Part shown: piece by piece, positions 1,483-9,721 of the stretch
How positions within the stretch are numbered: position 1 is the stretch's first letter
How the letters are laid out: every line of letters begins with the position of its first letter
From: Candidatus Mcinerneyibacteriota bacterium
GTDB taxonomy: Bacteria; AUK180; JAQVHJ01
Length of the DNA: 10,245 bases
Assembly: GCA_030630935.1 (NCBI GenBank)
Contig: DAOVMD010000075.1
Coordinates: 1-10,245, forward strand
Direction of reading: 5' to 3'
Position numbers and translations under genes: made by a program
Notes under the pieces: generated by a model
The model's input: only the letters and a program-made list of their open reading frames with translations
The model's database searches: none
Told to the model about the DNA's origin: nothing

Positions 1483-1926
1483 TTATGACTGGATTTTCTC
1501 TAATAATTCTTTCATTTGTTCAAGAAATAACTTAGCAGAATTCAAGGCATTTTTAGCATCATCATTTGCTGCAAAAAAACTTAAATTATATTGATTATTA
1601 TGTCTGATATTTCTGTGGTAATCAAGAAGTTCAGTCCACTTTTCATTAAGTTTCTCAGTTTTAACATATTTTTCATGAAGGTATCTTGAAACACATAAAT
1701 GATTCTTCTCCCTCCAACCATCATTAAATAAAATTGCTCTTGCTGAATGAAACATTACCATATAGGAAGCAATTACGGAGGAATTAAAGGCCATACTTTC
1801 TAAAGTTATCTTTGATTCAAGTAACCATTTTTCAGCTTTTTCAATTGAACGTGAAGCATTATCTTTAGATGGAGGAATCCTTCTTAAAAACCCGCCCTCA
1901 ACGCAATCGTTATAACTGTAAGTCAT
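1483..1926 (-). CDS. HEPN-domain protein (putative RNase toxin of an MNT/HEPN pair)
   Basis: A 147-residue, almost wholly alpha-helical protein of the HEPN superfamily, closest in feel to the UPF0332 branch. Visible family features are the 'SYMVMFHSARAILF' helix (about residues 54-67), 'DGWREKNH' (69-76), which resembles the loop of UPF0332 proteins, and the late polar motif R105-N-I-R108-H109 followed by Y113. That last motif is where HEPN RNases carry their R-x4-6-H catalytic residues and where HepT toxins carry an H-x-Y modified by the partner. The spacing here (R-x3-H-x3-Y) is not the textbook form. In known MNT/HEPN systems the HEPN protein is an RNase and the nucleotidyltransferase neutralises it by AMPylation. 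The gene starts inside the end of the upstream nucleotidyltransferase gene (17-base overlap), so the two are co-transcribed and probably translationally coupled. It ends in TAA. A non-toxic role is possible. Confidence 0.8.
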   Translation of the reverse strand: MTYSYNDCVEGGFLRRIPPSKDNASRSIEKAEKWLLESKITLESMAFNSSVIASYMVMFHSARAILFNDGWREKNHLCVSRYLHEKYVKTEKLNEKWTELLDYHRNIRHNNQYNLSFFAANDDAKNALNSAKLFLEQMKELLEKIQS

Positions 1927-2449
1927 TTAATTCTCCATAAATAATTATAGAACCAAATACAAGAGAGTTGTAAAATAAATTATCCTCGGTTTTGAGGTGT
2001 TTAATTTTCTTTGATGTAAGAAACAGAATGTTAATCTTATCTATTTTTGTAGAAATTTCAGAAGATAGTTTTGCAAGTTTGTTTTCACTTACTTCATCAT
2101 GTATTATCCAAAAATCAACATCAGATTCTTCATTGTTCTCTCCTTTTGCACAACTTCCATATATGCCTGCTGATTTGATAAAATCATATTTTTTCAAAAC
2201 AATAATAGATAATTTCTTTATATTTAACAATATTTTTATTCCTCTTCCAATAGCAGAATTTGCAACAAGATATTTCCCGTTTACTTTTTTTAAAATACTT
2301 TCCTTTACTAAAATATTTAGATATTTTGAAACCAGACCTTTACTGACTTTCAATTTAGAAGCAATTCTGTTGACACTTATTATGCCTTTCATGAAAATCA
2401 CTTCATTGAGTATTTTAGTTCTTTCCTTAGTTGAAAATAACTTTTCCAT
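1910..2449 (-). CDS. Winged-HTH / minimal nucleotidyltransferase fusion (MNT antitoxin)
   Basis: A 179-residue two-domain protein. Residues 1-65 form a winged helix-turn-helix: 'VNRIASKLKVSKGLVSKYLNI' spans the two helices, followed by 'ILKKVNGKYLV' as the wing. Residues about 85-175 are a minimal nucleotidyltransferase: G98-S99-C-A-K-G is the phosphate-binding turn, and S109-D110-V-D112-F-W is the metal-binding Asp pair. The third acidic position normally found on the later strand seems to be Asn140 in 'KINILFL', so activity may be weak or changed. In MNT/HEPN systems this partner AMPylates and neutralises the HEPN toxin; the fused DNA-binding domain suggests it also represses its own operon. 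ATG 2449 has GAGGTG upstream at good spacing. The gene lies first in the operon and its 3' end overlaps the HEPN gene. Confidence 0.85.
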   Translation of the reverse strand: MEKLFSTKERTKILNEVIFMKGIISVNRIASKLKVSKGLVSKYLNILVKESILKKVNGKYLVANSAIGRGIKILLNIKKLSIIVLKKYDFIKSAGIYGSCAKGENNEESDVDFWIIHDEVSENKLAKLSSEISTKIDKINILFLTSKKIKHLKTEDNLFYNSLVFGSIIIYGELNDLQL

Positions 2450-2499: not shown

Positions 2500-2528
2500 A
2501 TTATATAAACATTTTTTAGATTTGTCAA
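2500..2528 (-). promoter_or_regulatory. Consensus sigma70 promoter for the MNT/HEPN operon
   Basis: On the minus strand, TTGACA (2528-2523) and TATAAT (2505-2500) are both perfect consensus hexamers with the ideal 17-base spacer. Such a strong promoter with a palindrome at the start site is typical of an autorepressed toxin-antitoxin operon. Confidence 0.85.
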
Positions 2529-2563
2529 GTGTTTTTTTGCTCTTGATGTTACAATATGAAAAA
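2523..2563 (-). repeat. 41-bp promoter-upstream block, copy A
   Basis: This segment matches 8149-8189 at 36 of 41 positions by eye. The final 20 bases (plus-strand TGATGTTACAATATGAAAAA) are identical. It begins at the -35 hexamer and runs upstream, so both copies stand in the same place relative to their promoters. Confidence 0.75.
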
Positions 2564-5582: not shown

Positions 5583-5985
5583 ATTTGAATTAATGAACCG
5601 ACGTCAGCTTGAACAGATTAACAAGCGTACTTTAAAGTATCATCTTGCTGCAGCAGAAAAGGGGAAAAAGTTAAATTGTTAAAGAGTTAAAAAGATGTTG
5701 AAGAGTGCGGAAGCTAGGATAGTTCAATTGTTGAAATGTTAAAAAACGTTAAAGTGTGCTGGGGCTTTGATAGTTCAAATGTTAAAATGTTATTGTAGAT
5801 TTTCGGAGGATGTTGATTTTACGGCAGTTGATAAAGATAAAATTCTATCTAATTGGCAGGTTGCGAAACAGCAGCAGGAAAAAGCAACCTGCGAGATTTA
5901 CTGCACTGAAGAAGTATCAGGTTCTGACATTGAAAAATTAATCAATAATTTTAAATTCAATGAGATTGCAAAAAACGCAGATTAA
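5569..5985 (+). pseudogene. abiEii: AbiEii nucleotidyltransferase toxin, core replaced by repeats
   Basis: Remnant of the AbiEii toxin gene. ATG 5569, with GAGG four bases upstream, begins 'RRQLEQINKRTLKYHLAAAEK', matching the conserved AbiEii N-terminus. 'RFSEDVDFTAVD', the family's metal-binding Asp motif, resumes at 5797 in the same frame. Between them (about 5662-5796, 135 bases) the expected stretch with the K-G-G-T-A nucleotide-binding motif is gone. GTTNAANN octamer repeat DNA with stops at 5680 and 5740 stands in its place. After 'DKDKILSNWQVAK' the sequence no longer looks like AbiEii, and the frame ends at TAA 5985, whereas family members continue for some 200 residues more. The gene cannot encode an active toxin. 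Its loss makes the loss of abiEi unsurprising. Confidence 0.75.
5675..5795 (+). repeat. Octamer repeat array inside abiEii, copy 2
   Basis: Units GTTAAATT/GTTAAAGA and GTTCAATT-GTTGAAAT-GTTAAAAA form the array. A larger direct repeat of about 49 bases is visible: AGTGCGG...GATAGTTCAATTGTTGAAATG (5704-5741), then AGTGTGCTGGG...GATAGTTCAAATGTTAAAATG (5753-5792). It occupies the place of the AbiEii active-site segment. Confidence 0.65.
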
Positions 5986-6465: not shown

Positions 6466-7467
6466 TTAAATATCTTCAAAAAAGTGTCCCTGTTTCGTTT
6501 CATTATTATTCGTGGGGGCATCTTGTTTAAGTAATTTCATTACAAAATTCTTTACGGCAGTATTCTTTTCTTCTAAACCGCTCTGAACAAATGAAGGCCC
6601 AAAAATTTCAAACCCGAATTTATAAACATTTTTTCGAACCTCACCATTTCCGAGATCTAAAAATCTGTCGAAGATTTTTCTGACGAATTCCAAGTCAAGT
6701 TTATTCTGAAGTCTATAAACAGCTTCGACCAAGCCTTTATAAATTGGGTAAAGAGAACGGCTATTAAGTGTTTTCGTTTCCTGAAATATATTTTCAATTT
6801 CCTCCTCCGGATTATCGGACAAGAGACAACCCCATAAAGCGGCATACTGATTTACGGCAGTTGGCATCATGTAATTCTGATAGTATTTGCTTAGAATCCT
6901 TCCCAATGCGAATTTAGTAATTACTTCTTCTAAATGCTCTGATGGGATTTCTTTAAATGTTTCATCATTCTGATTTAAATCATGTAAGGCTTCATCAAGT
7001 TCTTCTTCAGTTACGTATGCCCAGGGCGGATATGTGTCATGGTTTTCCTGTAAAAGGTAAGTTGTATAAAGTATTTTATGTTCTTTCTCTATTGGTTCTA
7101 TTTCCATAAGCATTCTAAACAATTTTCTCGTTTTAATTTTTGAAAATCTCAAGTTCAGAAAGCAAACACCAAGAGACATTCTTTCTTCAGGAGTATATGC
7201 TTGATTCCCAGCTGTTACTTTCCATAGCATGAGAGTTGTTTCATGGTCAATTGTATTATAATAATGGACATGGAGGACAATATTTGTTATGAATTTTTGA
7301 ATCTCTCTAAAAAGCAATGGTTTCTTTAAAGAACTAATCAGATTCATTAAATGTTCTATCTTTTCTTCAGTTTCAGGATAAGAATTCAAAATTATATCGA
7401 CTTCTGAAAGTTCCTTTTTGTCACTTATGGGAATGATATTCGTGATAGTTTTCTTCTTTTTAGACAT
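6466..7467 (-). CDS. Uncharacterised helical protein, second gene of a two-gene operon
   Basis: A 333-residue, acidic, soluble protein that I do not recognise. No signal peptide or membrane segment is seen. The first 18 residues are Lys/Ile-rich and probably disordered. The rest reads as successive amphipathic helices ('KIEHLMNLISSLKKPLLFREIQKF', 'MSLGVCFLNLRFSKIKTRKLFRMLMEIEPIEKEHKILYTTYLL', 'IENIFQETKTLNSRSLYPIYKGLVEAVYRLQ'), consistent with a helical-repeat (TPR/HEAT-like) scaffold. The C-terminal 20 residues are polar (NNNETKQG). There is no obvious catalytic motif. GGAGGTGAG lies just before ATG 7467. The gene follows the 191-residue gene by 44 bases on the same strand with no terminator between them, so both should be on one mRNA. 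It ends in TAA at 6466. Its intact frame amid broken neighbours suggests it is maintained. Confidence 0.75.
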   Translation of the reverse strand: MSKKKKTITNIIPISDKKELSEVDIILNSYPETEEKIEHLMNLISSLKKPLLFREIQKFITNIVLHVHYYNTIDHETTLMLWKVTAGNQAYTPEERMSLGVCFLNLRFSKIKTRKLFRMLMEIEPIEKEHKILYTTYLLQENHDTYPPWAYVTEEELDEALHDLNQNDETFKEIPSEHLEEVITKFALGRILSKYYQNYMMPTAVNQYAALWGCLLSDNPEEEIENIFQETKTLNSRSLYPIYKGLVEAVYRLQNKLDLEFVRKIFDRFLDLGNGEVRKNVYKFGFEIFGPSFVQSGLEEKNTAVKNFVMKLLKQDAPTNNNETKQGHFFEDI

Positions 7468-7511
7468 TAGGGCTCACCTCCATTTTTATTTTAAATACAA
7501 ATGTCTTGACA

Positions 7512-8087
7512 TTACATTAGATTGTAAAACAATTCTTTGCCTAAATGCGGGCAATAATCATTCAATATTTCTTCTAAAGATGATGATGAGCTCAAGAATA
7601 TCCAATCATCAATACTTCCTAAAAAACAAAATCGTTCTACTATAAATTCTCTTTTCTTCTCATTCTCTAAGGTGAATCTCAGCATAGGTGTGTATGTTGC
7701 GAACTTATCTAATATATTAATTAATTTTTTATTTGCAATATTAAAAGAATTAGTTAAATTAAGAATGTGACTGTAATCTTCCTGATCTTTCAGATAAATA
7801 GTTATAGTTTTTTTCTTATAATCAATAATGAAATACTTTGAATCAAGATATTTCCTAATACTGCGATCAACTAATTCTAACTCTTCGTTTTTAATTGGAG
7901 AGACCAGTTTTCTCCGCATAAAAACCTGAGCATTTGGATTTTCATAAATCTCATATCCATCAGGGATAATAAACACGAGGTTGCCTGTGTTACTCTTTGA
8001 AAAGTAATATTTATTCTTGCCGGTTTTTGTTTGACCTTCATGAAGGTAATAAATATCGCCCTTTCTATTCGTCCAGGTTATTGCCAT
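7512..8087 (-). CDS. Conserved protein of unknown function, first gene of the operon
   Basis: A 191-residue soluble protein. The N-terminus 'ITWTNRKGDIYYLHEGQTKTGK' leads into 'YYFSKSNTGNLVFIIPDGYEIYENPNAQVF' (residues 27-56), where IPDGYEIYENPNAQVFMRR has the look of a strongly conserved beta-rich domain. From memory, similar W-N-R-K-G ... IP-x-GYEIYE-NPN proteins occur scattered across bacteria without known function. The C-terminal third has 'EFIVERFCFLGSIDDWIFL' (148-165) and 'YCPHLGKELFYNLM', which appear to belong to the same family, so the gene looks full length. The Tyr/Lys-rich middle (about 80-130) is less distinctive. AGGAGGTGA sits directly before ATG 8087. It is transcribed from the promoter at 8126-8154 and followed by the 333-residue gene. 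No function can be assigned. Confidence 0.8.
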   Translation of the reverse strand: MAITWTNRKGDIYYLHEGQTKTGKNKYYFSKSNTGNLVFIIPDGYEIYENPNAQVFMRRKLVSPIKNEELELVDRSIRKYLDSKYFIIDYKKKTITIYLKDQEDYSHILNLTNSFNIANKKLINILDKFATYTPMLRFTLENEKKREFIVERFCFLGSIDDWIFLSSSSSLEEILNDYCPHLGKELFYNLM

Positions 8088-8125: not shown

Positions 8126-8154
8126 ATTTTAAATAATTTTTCTTAAATTGTCAA
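8126..8154 (-). promoter_or_regulatory. Sigma70 promoter of the two-gene unknown operon
   Basis: On the minus strand, TTGACA (8154-8149), 17 bases, TAAAAT (8131-8126). The leader to ATG 8087 contains AGGAGGTGA. The -35 box and its upstream flank belong to the same 41-bp block as the MNT/HEPN promoter. Confidence 0.8.
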
Positions 8155-8189
8155 GTATTATTTTACCCCTGATGTTACAATATGAAAAA
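8149..8189 (-). repeat. 41-bp promoter-upstream block, copy B
   Basis: Partner of 2523-2563: five mismatches in 41 bases, all within a 13-base stretch, with the distal 20 bases identical. Beyond this block the two loci diverge on both sides, and the downstream core-promoter spacers are unrelated. That makes it a discrete shared element and not part of a larger duplication. Confidence 0.75.
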
Positions 8190-8689: not shown

Positions 8690-9721
8690 ATGGATGGGAA
8701 AATGGTAAAGAAATAATTAAAGAATCTGATTGAGGAAATTAAAAACAAGATCTATCAATCACAATAGGAAGCATTAAAGAAGGTTAATAAGGAGCTCATT
8801 TCTCTTTACTGGGGAATTGGTGAAAGTATTGTAAAAAGGCAGGAAAAATATAATTGGGGAAAATCTGTAGTTGAAAATATTTCTCATGAGCTTCAAAAAG
8901 AGTTCCCCAGTATTAAAGGATTTTCTGCTGCAAATTTATGGAGAACACGAAATTTCTATAATACATATTTAAGGAATCAAAAACTCGCAACATTGTCGCG
9001 AGAAATATCCTGGTCACATAATATCGCTATAATGGAAAAATGTAAAGATAATGAGGAAAGGGAATTCTATATGATAACATCAAAAAAGTATGGCTGGACT
9101 TATAGAGTTCTAATAAATCAGATAGAAAATCAAACATACCAAAAGTTCTTATCAAATCAAACAAATTTTGATAAAACAGTTTCTAAAAAAATGAAAAATC
9201 AAGCGAAACTTACAGTAAAGGATGAGTATACATTTGATTTTCTGGAATTGGGTGAAGATCACTCGGAAAAGGAATTAGAAATTCATTTAGTAAATAATAT
9301 AAGGAATTTTCTAATAGAAATGGGTGGATATTTTACTTTTATTGGGAATTAGTTTAGAATTGAAGTGGGGGGTGAAGAGTTTTTTATTGATTTACTTTTA
9401 TTTCACAGAAAATTACGATGCCTTATAGCAATTGAATTGAAGATAGGGAAATTCAAACCAGAGTATGCCGGGAAAATGCAATTTTATTTATCTGTTTTAA
9501 ATGACAAAATGAGAATAGAAAATGAAAATCCAAGTATTGGAATTATAATTTGCAAAGATAAGAATAGAACCATTGTCGAATATAGTTTAAAGGATTTAAA
9601 TAACCAAATTGGTGTAGCTTCCTACAAAATGAGAAAGACTTTACCTAAAGAGTTAAAAAGATATCTACCTTCCTCAGAAGAAATTGTTAGAAATCTGTTT
9701 GACTTTGATGAGACAAAATGA
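8690..9721 (+). pseudogene. DUF1016 / YhcG-type PD-(D/E)xK nuclease, three in-frame stops
   Basis: One frame from ATG 8690 (AGGAG five bases upstream) to TGA 9721 covers 343 codons, a normal length for YhcG/DUF1016 proteins. It is broken by TAA 8714, TAG 8765 and TAG 9350. Family signatures are clear: 'EALKKVNKELISLYWGIGESIV' at the N-terminus, 'GFSAANLWRTRNFY', 'REISWSHNIAIMEKC', then the nuclease domain 'FRIEVGGEEFFIDLLLFHRKLRCLIAIELKIGKFKPEYAGKMQFYL', with the catalytic Asp in FFIDL and the E-x-K in IELKI. Family comparison from memory puts Tyr at the second stop and Gln at the third (CAG to TAG). Catalytic residues survive, so decay looks recent. Such proteins occur beside restriction-modification and other defence genes and resemble Holliday-junction-type nucleases. 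No intact product can be made without readthrough. Confidence 0.85.

Follow-up and report, generated by a model that had tools for sequence, protein, structure and literature searches.

Among the members of the IS1202 family, as defined in a 2023 survey, some generate long target-site duplications (TSDs), and the survey saw no evidence that these target a conserved sequence (PMC10132070). The elements described here share with these members (such as ISTde1, ISCARN53, ISCARN62, ISCARN63 and ISHahy13) TGT...ACA-type ends, imperfect inverted repeats of ~25 bp, a further internal repeat unit close to the end and a TSD of 15-18 bp (PMC10132070); they differ from the published group in having the upstream edge of a -35 hexamer as their target, and the element in our sequence is a miniature inverted-repeat element (MITE) lacking a transposase. 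The ISAjo2 group of the same family, which targets dif/pdif sites, inserts 5 bp, i.e. the length of its TSD, from the XerC site, and its transposase was proposed to contact XerC (PMC10132070). As in our case, the TSD adjoins a protein-binding site and no extra targeting protein is encoded; by contrast, ISAjo2 elements use the XerC side of dif-like sites and a TSD of 5 bp, whereas here the target is a promoter and the TSD is 15-18 bp. IS481EU elements of parabasalids have related DDE transposases, TGT ends and TSD classes of ~4, 15 and 25 bp, but their host is eukaryotic and the accessible part of their description names no promoter target (PMC10045372). Finally, Correia and other promoter-bearing bacterial MITEs are also small inverted-repeat elements that often lie just upstream of genes, but they carry internal promoters (PMC10969869), whereas here the promoter is a pre-existing target outside the element.

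The window, i.e. the whole 10,245-nucleotide stretch analysed, contains a 41-bp block twice (positions 2523-2563 and 8149-8189). On recomparison, the two copies agreed at 36 of 41 positions with the final 20 bases identical and each starting at a minus-strand -35 hexamer, exactly as originally reported; both open with TGTCAA on the plus strand, minus-strand gene starts lie downstream of both promoters, and a repeat finder aligned them over 76 nt with 75% identity. All five mismatches are confined to the 15 nt that separate the -35 hexamer from the identical 20-mer, in agreement with this spacer being duplicated host DNA outside the repeat proper. We conclude, with a probability of roughly 0.86 for the explanation as a whole, that the block joins the -35 box of a host promoter to a 15-bp TSD and the latter to the decayed remains of the left end of a non-autonomous MITE, which is a member or a close relative of the long-TSD IS1202 group, and that this group as a whole, rather than the MITE alone, inserts beside sigma-70-type promoters. 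No second TSD copy was found within the window for either remnant, and the TSDs of these two remnants are presumed from those of complete relatives (Table 1).

Table 1. Coordinates of the two MITE junctions in the window and of the genes behind the two promoters
Feature	Position	Strand	Basis
-10 hexamer TATAAT, promoter of the nucleotidyltransferase/HEPN operon	2500..2505	-	sequence, 17 nt from -35
-35 hexamer TTGACA (TGTCAA on +), copy 1, adjoining the TSD	2523..2528	-	
Presumed 15-bp TSD GTGTTTTTTTGCTCT, promoter-side copy, partner lost	2529..2543	.	inferred from TSDs of complete relatives
MITE left-end remnant, copy 1 (TGATGTTACAATATGAAAAA)	2544..2563	.	
-10 hexamer TAAAAT, copy 2 promoter	8126..8131	-	sequence, 17 nt from -35
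-35 hexamer TTGACA, copy 2	8149..8154	-	
Presumed 15-bp TSD GTATTATTTTACCCC, promoter-side copy	8155..8169	.	inferred from TSDs of complete relatives
MITE left-end remnant, copy 2, truncated after 19-20 bp	8170..8189	.	
Nucleotidyltransferase behind promoter 1	1910-2449	-	Polbeta 1e-10 (Pfam), weak MntA match
HEPN protein behind promoter 1	1483-1926	-	Pfam HEPN 4e-16
Two proteins behind promoter 2	7512-8087, 6466-7467	-	no Pfam or NCBIfam match (6466..8087)

The host genome contains ~28 copies of the MITE at dispersed positions. With up to three mismatches allowed, the 3.16-Mb genome has 23 matches to the 20-mer, well beyond chance expectation, whereas the reversed control pattern does not occur; two of the 23 matches (L026 and L027) resemble chance hits. 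Most copies run on into a longer repeat (TGATGTTACAATATGAAAATGTTAACATTAATTACTAAATAGAAATGTTAAC...) of 139-140 bp, which is identical on four contigs at unrelated loci and at which contigs break. Relatives of the MITE are present in three metagenome-assembled genomes (MAGs) of the host's class: the host version also occurs in STE_202, and a related version (TATTGTTACAATATGAAAATGTTAA) occurs in AUK180 and CSMAG_2929, two MAGs from another family of the same class. The AAATGTTAA unit recurs 26 bp inward in most long copies, and four complete MITEs of 130-293 bp with a right end of the type TGTTATTCCAAAGTCAAAATGTTAA were identified in CSMAG_2929 (G005). The exact MITE core was not found in viral contigs. 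In one host locus (L016; G000:C438, 28-99), two left ends form a 72-bp palindrome flanked by divergent promoters, both of which have their -35 hexamer at exactly 15 nt; this palindrome probably represents two insertions fused by rearrangement. A second dispersed repeat of ~26 nt (GGGTGCCGGTC...) is present in the window at 1260, 4634, 8391 and 9721 in both orientations, and its motif also borders a MITE copy in L015.

We examined the relation between the other genomic copies and promoters, all promoters in this study being predicted from the sequence. Among 49 independent left ends with adequate flanking sequence, 44 had a -35 hexamer at 14-16 nt (23 of 25 in the host and 21 of 24 in the relatives) and a -10 hexamer ~17 nt further on, while five lacked a -35 hexamer; thus, the other genomic copies did not refute the link to promoters, as a lack of any such relation would have done. 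The mean -10 match at the left ends was 5.35 of 6 in the host and 5.48 in the relatives, compared to 3.1 at the remaining TTGACA-like sites of these loci. The spacer between the -35 hexamer and the MITE has a different sequence at each copy, and IS200/IS605-type ends with a fixed cleavage distance were ruled out because the spacer is variable host DNA.

Beyond the right end of the four complete MITEs in CSMAG_2929, the spacer recurs at 15/15, 14/15, 14/15 and 13/15 positions; in the last of these, where the spacing is 16, the duplication can be read as one of 16 bp. A fifth element, which spans two contigs, is flanked on either side by the identical 16-mer ATAATAAGAAGATCGG (16/16). In the host genome, the duplication flanking an element of ~320 bp (C138) matched at 12/15 positions, which is no better than its own shuffled control. 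In total, a TSD of ~15-18 bp, as in the long-TSD IS1202 group, is present in five MITE copies, and because the complete elements have a copy of the spacer on the far side, they are inverted-repeat MITEs with a duplication that adjoins the -35 hexamer. These observations bear on the original prediction that the block could be a shared activator site or UP-like element. On such a reading, a regulator would bind a 20-25-bp block at ~-61 and activate each promoter. A site of this kind would fit the constant distance from the -35 hexamer and the frequent retention of the inner 25 bp amid decay of the remainder; however, the spacer is duplicated at the far side of complete copies, and the 139-140-bp flanking repeat is identical at four unrelated loci. 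The prediction is therefore not supported, and a common activator site was rejected on the TSDs.

The genes behind the MITE-flanked promoters encode four aminoacyl-tRNA synthetases (GluRS, GlyRS alpha, LysRS and MetRS), IF-3, HrcA, a V-type ATPase, GcvT, an EutN-type protein, a TGS GTPase and a sodium symporter as well as tRNA-Met and a cluster led by tRNA-Gly. An activator site is expected to be non-mobile and to serve a co-regulated set of genes; here, TSDs are present and the genes are unrelated and form no regulon, and we therefore regard regulator binding as very unlikely. The block had alternatively been proposed to be the edge of a mobile unit that brings a promoter to accessory genes. 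The first part of this proposal holds. The second does not: these genes are unrelated and often essential, which speaks against promoter delivery to accessory genes, and the element inserts beside promoters that already exist, such as those of the aminoacyl-tRNA synthetases, IF-3, HrcA and tRNAs. Carriage of the promoter by the mobile unit was ruled out because spacers, -10 boxes and genes vary behind identical elements.

Several additional features were observed in the window. The overlapping nucleotidyltransferase and HEPN genes (1483-2449, minus strand) resemble a HEPN/MNT toxin-antitoxin pair, and the nucleotidyltransferase has an N-terminal helix-turn-helix-like stretch. At 8700-9721 (plus strand), a gene for a YhcG-type PDDEXK nuclease is interrupted by an in-frame stop codon close to 9352, with the full Pfam match in the second part only. 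Imperfect tandem repeats of 51-53 bp rich in TTGAACAATTGAAC-like units lie at 331-471 and, in inverted orientation, at 5675-5791.

Because the TSD of 15-16 bp and the TGT-type ends are reminiscent of the IS1202 family, we analysed this family in other genomes. NF033594 transposases were present in 48 of 386 genomes, and a second genome set contained additional ones. A TSD finder blind to the flanks yielded an unbiased set of 19 independent insertions from 11 genomes. In 17 of these 19 insertions, TTG starts precisely at the outer boundary of the TSD (binomial P ~4e-23), and in none does it start at offsets 1-4. All 17 have a -10 hexamer matching at least 4/6 positions at 16-18 nt, and 14 of the 17 have one matching at least 5/6; for any TTG in the same loci, the corresponding values are 20% and 3%. 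Moreover, a copy on a plasmid of Paenibacillus cellulosilyticus with an 18-bp TSD adjoins TTGACC-N17-TATAAT; this promoter-like sequence lies within a gene, since the open frame around the copy can be read as an IS3-type transposase. Including this copy, 18 of 20 insertions with TSDs of 15-18 bp adjoin a promoter TTG. Similarly, three copies without a clean TSD (L201, L203 and L249) have a full promoter 16-17 nt away, and all five recent identical copies in one genome (G255) are in register. As these autonomous elements have other end sequences and yet show the same register as the MITE, they provide a further argument against an activator site.

The same insertions speak to the possibility that insertion is random and only copies just upstream of promoters survive selection. 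An insertion upstream of the -35 hexamer spares the gene and would be expected to survive well; however, selection would hardly set an exact register of 17 of 19 insertions at offset 0 with none at offsets 1-4, the Paenibacillus copy has the same target within a coding frame, and the five G255 copies are recent. Thus, we consider survival after random insertion highly improbable and favour targeting of promoters by the elements.

Two of the 20 TSD insertions are not at promoters, and the exceptions are L223 (G659) and an IS present in four copies in G433. All four copies of this IS1202-type element (L220, L239, L246 and L248) are off promoters, one having a 17-bp TSD, and it is possible that the element represents a sub-lineage with a different target. 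The transposases of the elements L165-L254 score above the NF033594 cut-off, and the IS1202-type transposases have a Q seven residues past the catalytic E, in agreement with the family description (PMC10132070). One element (G548; 1327 bp, 17-bp TSD) fits the figures published for ISTde1 and is a candidate for this element; a DNA search with the 1327-bp element against plasmids gave no match, as did a PDB sequence search with one transposase. Plasmid relatives are annotated as IS1202-like ISEsa1, and no long TSD was seen in four of the five inspected (Aliivibrio, Kosakonia, Roseibium and Rhizobium). Also, the IS usually has an outward-facing TTGACA, a -35-like hexamer, at one terminus (L195, L205 and L208); therefore, hybrid outward promoters might additionally arise from some of the insertions.

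The assignment of the MITE to this group rests on its ends, TSD and target, because searches of the host genome (NF033594, rve PF00665 and alignment A3) detected only unrelated transposases and no IS1202-type transposase was found in the host or its relatives, the host MAG being 80% complete and broken at these repeats. On an end profile built from 12 IS1202-type elements, the MITE ends score 2.7-19.2, whereas permutations score -27 +/- 9; real IS1202-type ends left out in turn reach 9.3-28.3. The right end of the MITE starts with TGT and the left end with TGA or TAT, so that the TGT rule holds at one end only. Its inner repeat (AAATGTTAA) resembles the additional inner transposase site of the family (PMC10132070), in which the inner part of the inverted repeat recurs, and is a putative site of this kind. 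Altogether, these features suggest that the MITE was mobilised by an IS1202-type transposase that is now missing.

The insertions place one strand-transfer point at the upstream boundary of the -35 hexamer and the second one 15-18 bp farther from the promoter, which leaves the promoter and the DNA immediately upstream intact. In the mechanism that we propose, the transposase would find its site through a promoter bound by sigma/RNA polymerase. Across the 18 targets, clear information is present only at the -35 and -10 hexamers, and TTG is the most conserved feature, with its G at 2.5 bits. Recognition via promoter-bound sigma/RNA polymerase rather than by unaided reading of DNA is fairly probable, because both hexamers are conserved at the right spacing while the spacer is not. 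Alternatively, the transposase itself might read promoter-like DNA (TTG... plus a -10 hexamer) without help from RNA polymerase. The prominence of TTG and the presence of the identical motif, TGTCAA, at usually one IS end are in line with direct reading; however, the -10 hexamer remains ~17 nt away even when the -35 hexamer is weak (TTGCAT, TTGTTT, TTGCCG or TTGTAA), and the spacer is not constrained in sequence, as would be expected if polymerase were bound to the promoters. We therefore view direct reading as a tentative alternative and prefer guidance by the polymerase. In yeast, Ty3 integration is placed precisely at promoters and leaves the gene unharmed. There is about an even chance that the long-TSD IS1202 group is the bacterial counterpart, i.e. 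that it is promoter-directed, its transposase docking on promoters occupied by sigma-70/RNA polymerase and joining the element across the 15-18 bp immediately upstream of the -35 hexamer; Ty3 itself is an unrelated eukaryotic retrotransposon, and guidance by the transcription machinery is proposed here from target composition.

We found no literature report of promoter targeting by the long-TSD IS1202 group, with preprints and most subscription journals lying outside the search, and the promoter target is thus provisionally new. It supplies a target, testable and at base-pair precision, for a group that lacked one in the 2023 survey. If true, this would be a group of bacterial transposons that lands at promoters and leaves them intact, which is relevant to the rewiring of expression by insertions and to site-selective integration without extra targeting proteins. 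Moreover, such insertions could be used as promoter footprints in the genomes of uncultured organisms.
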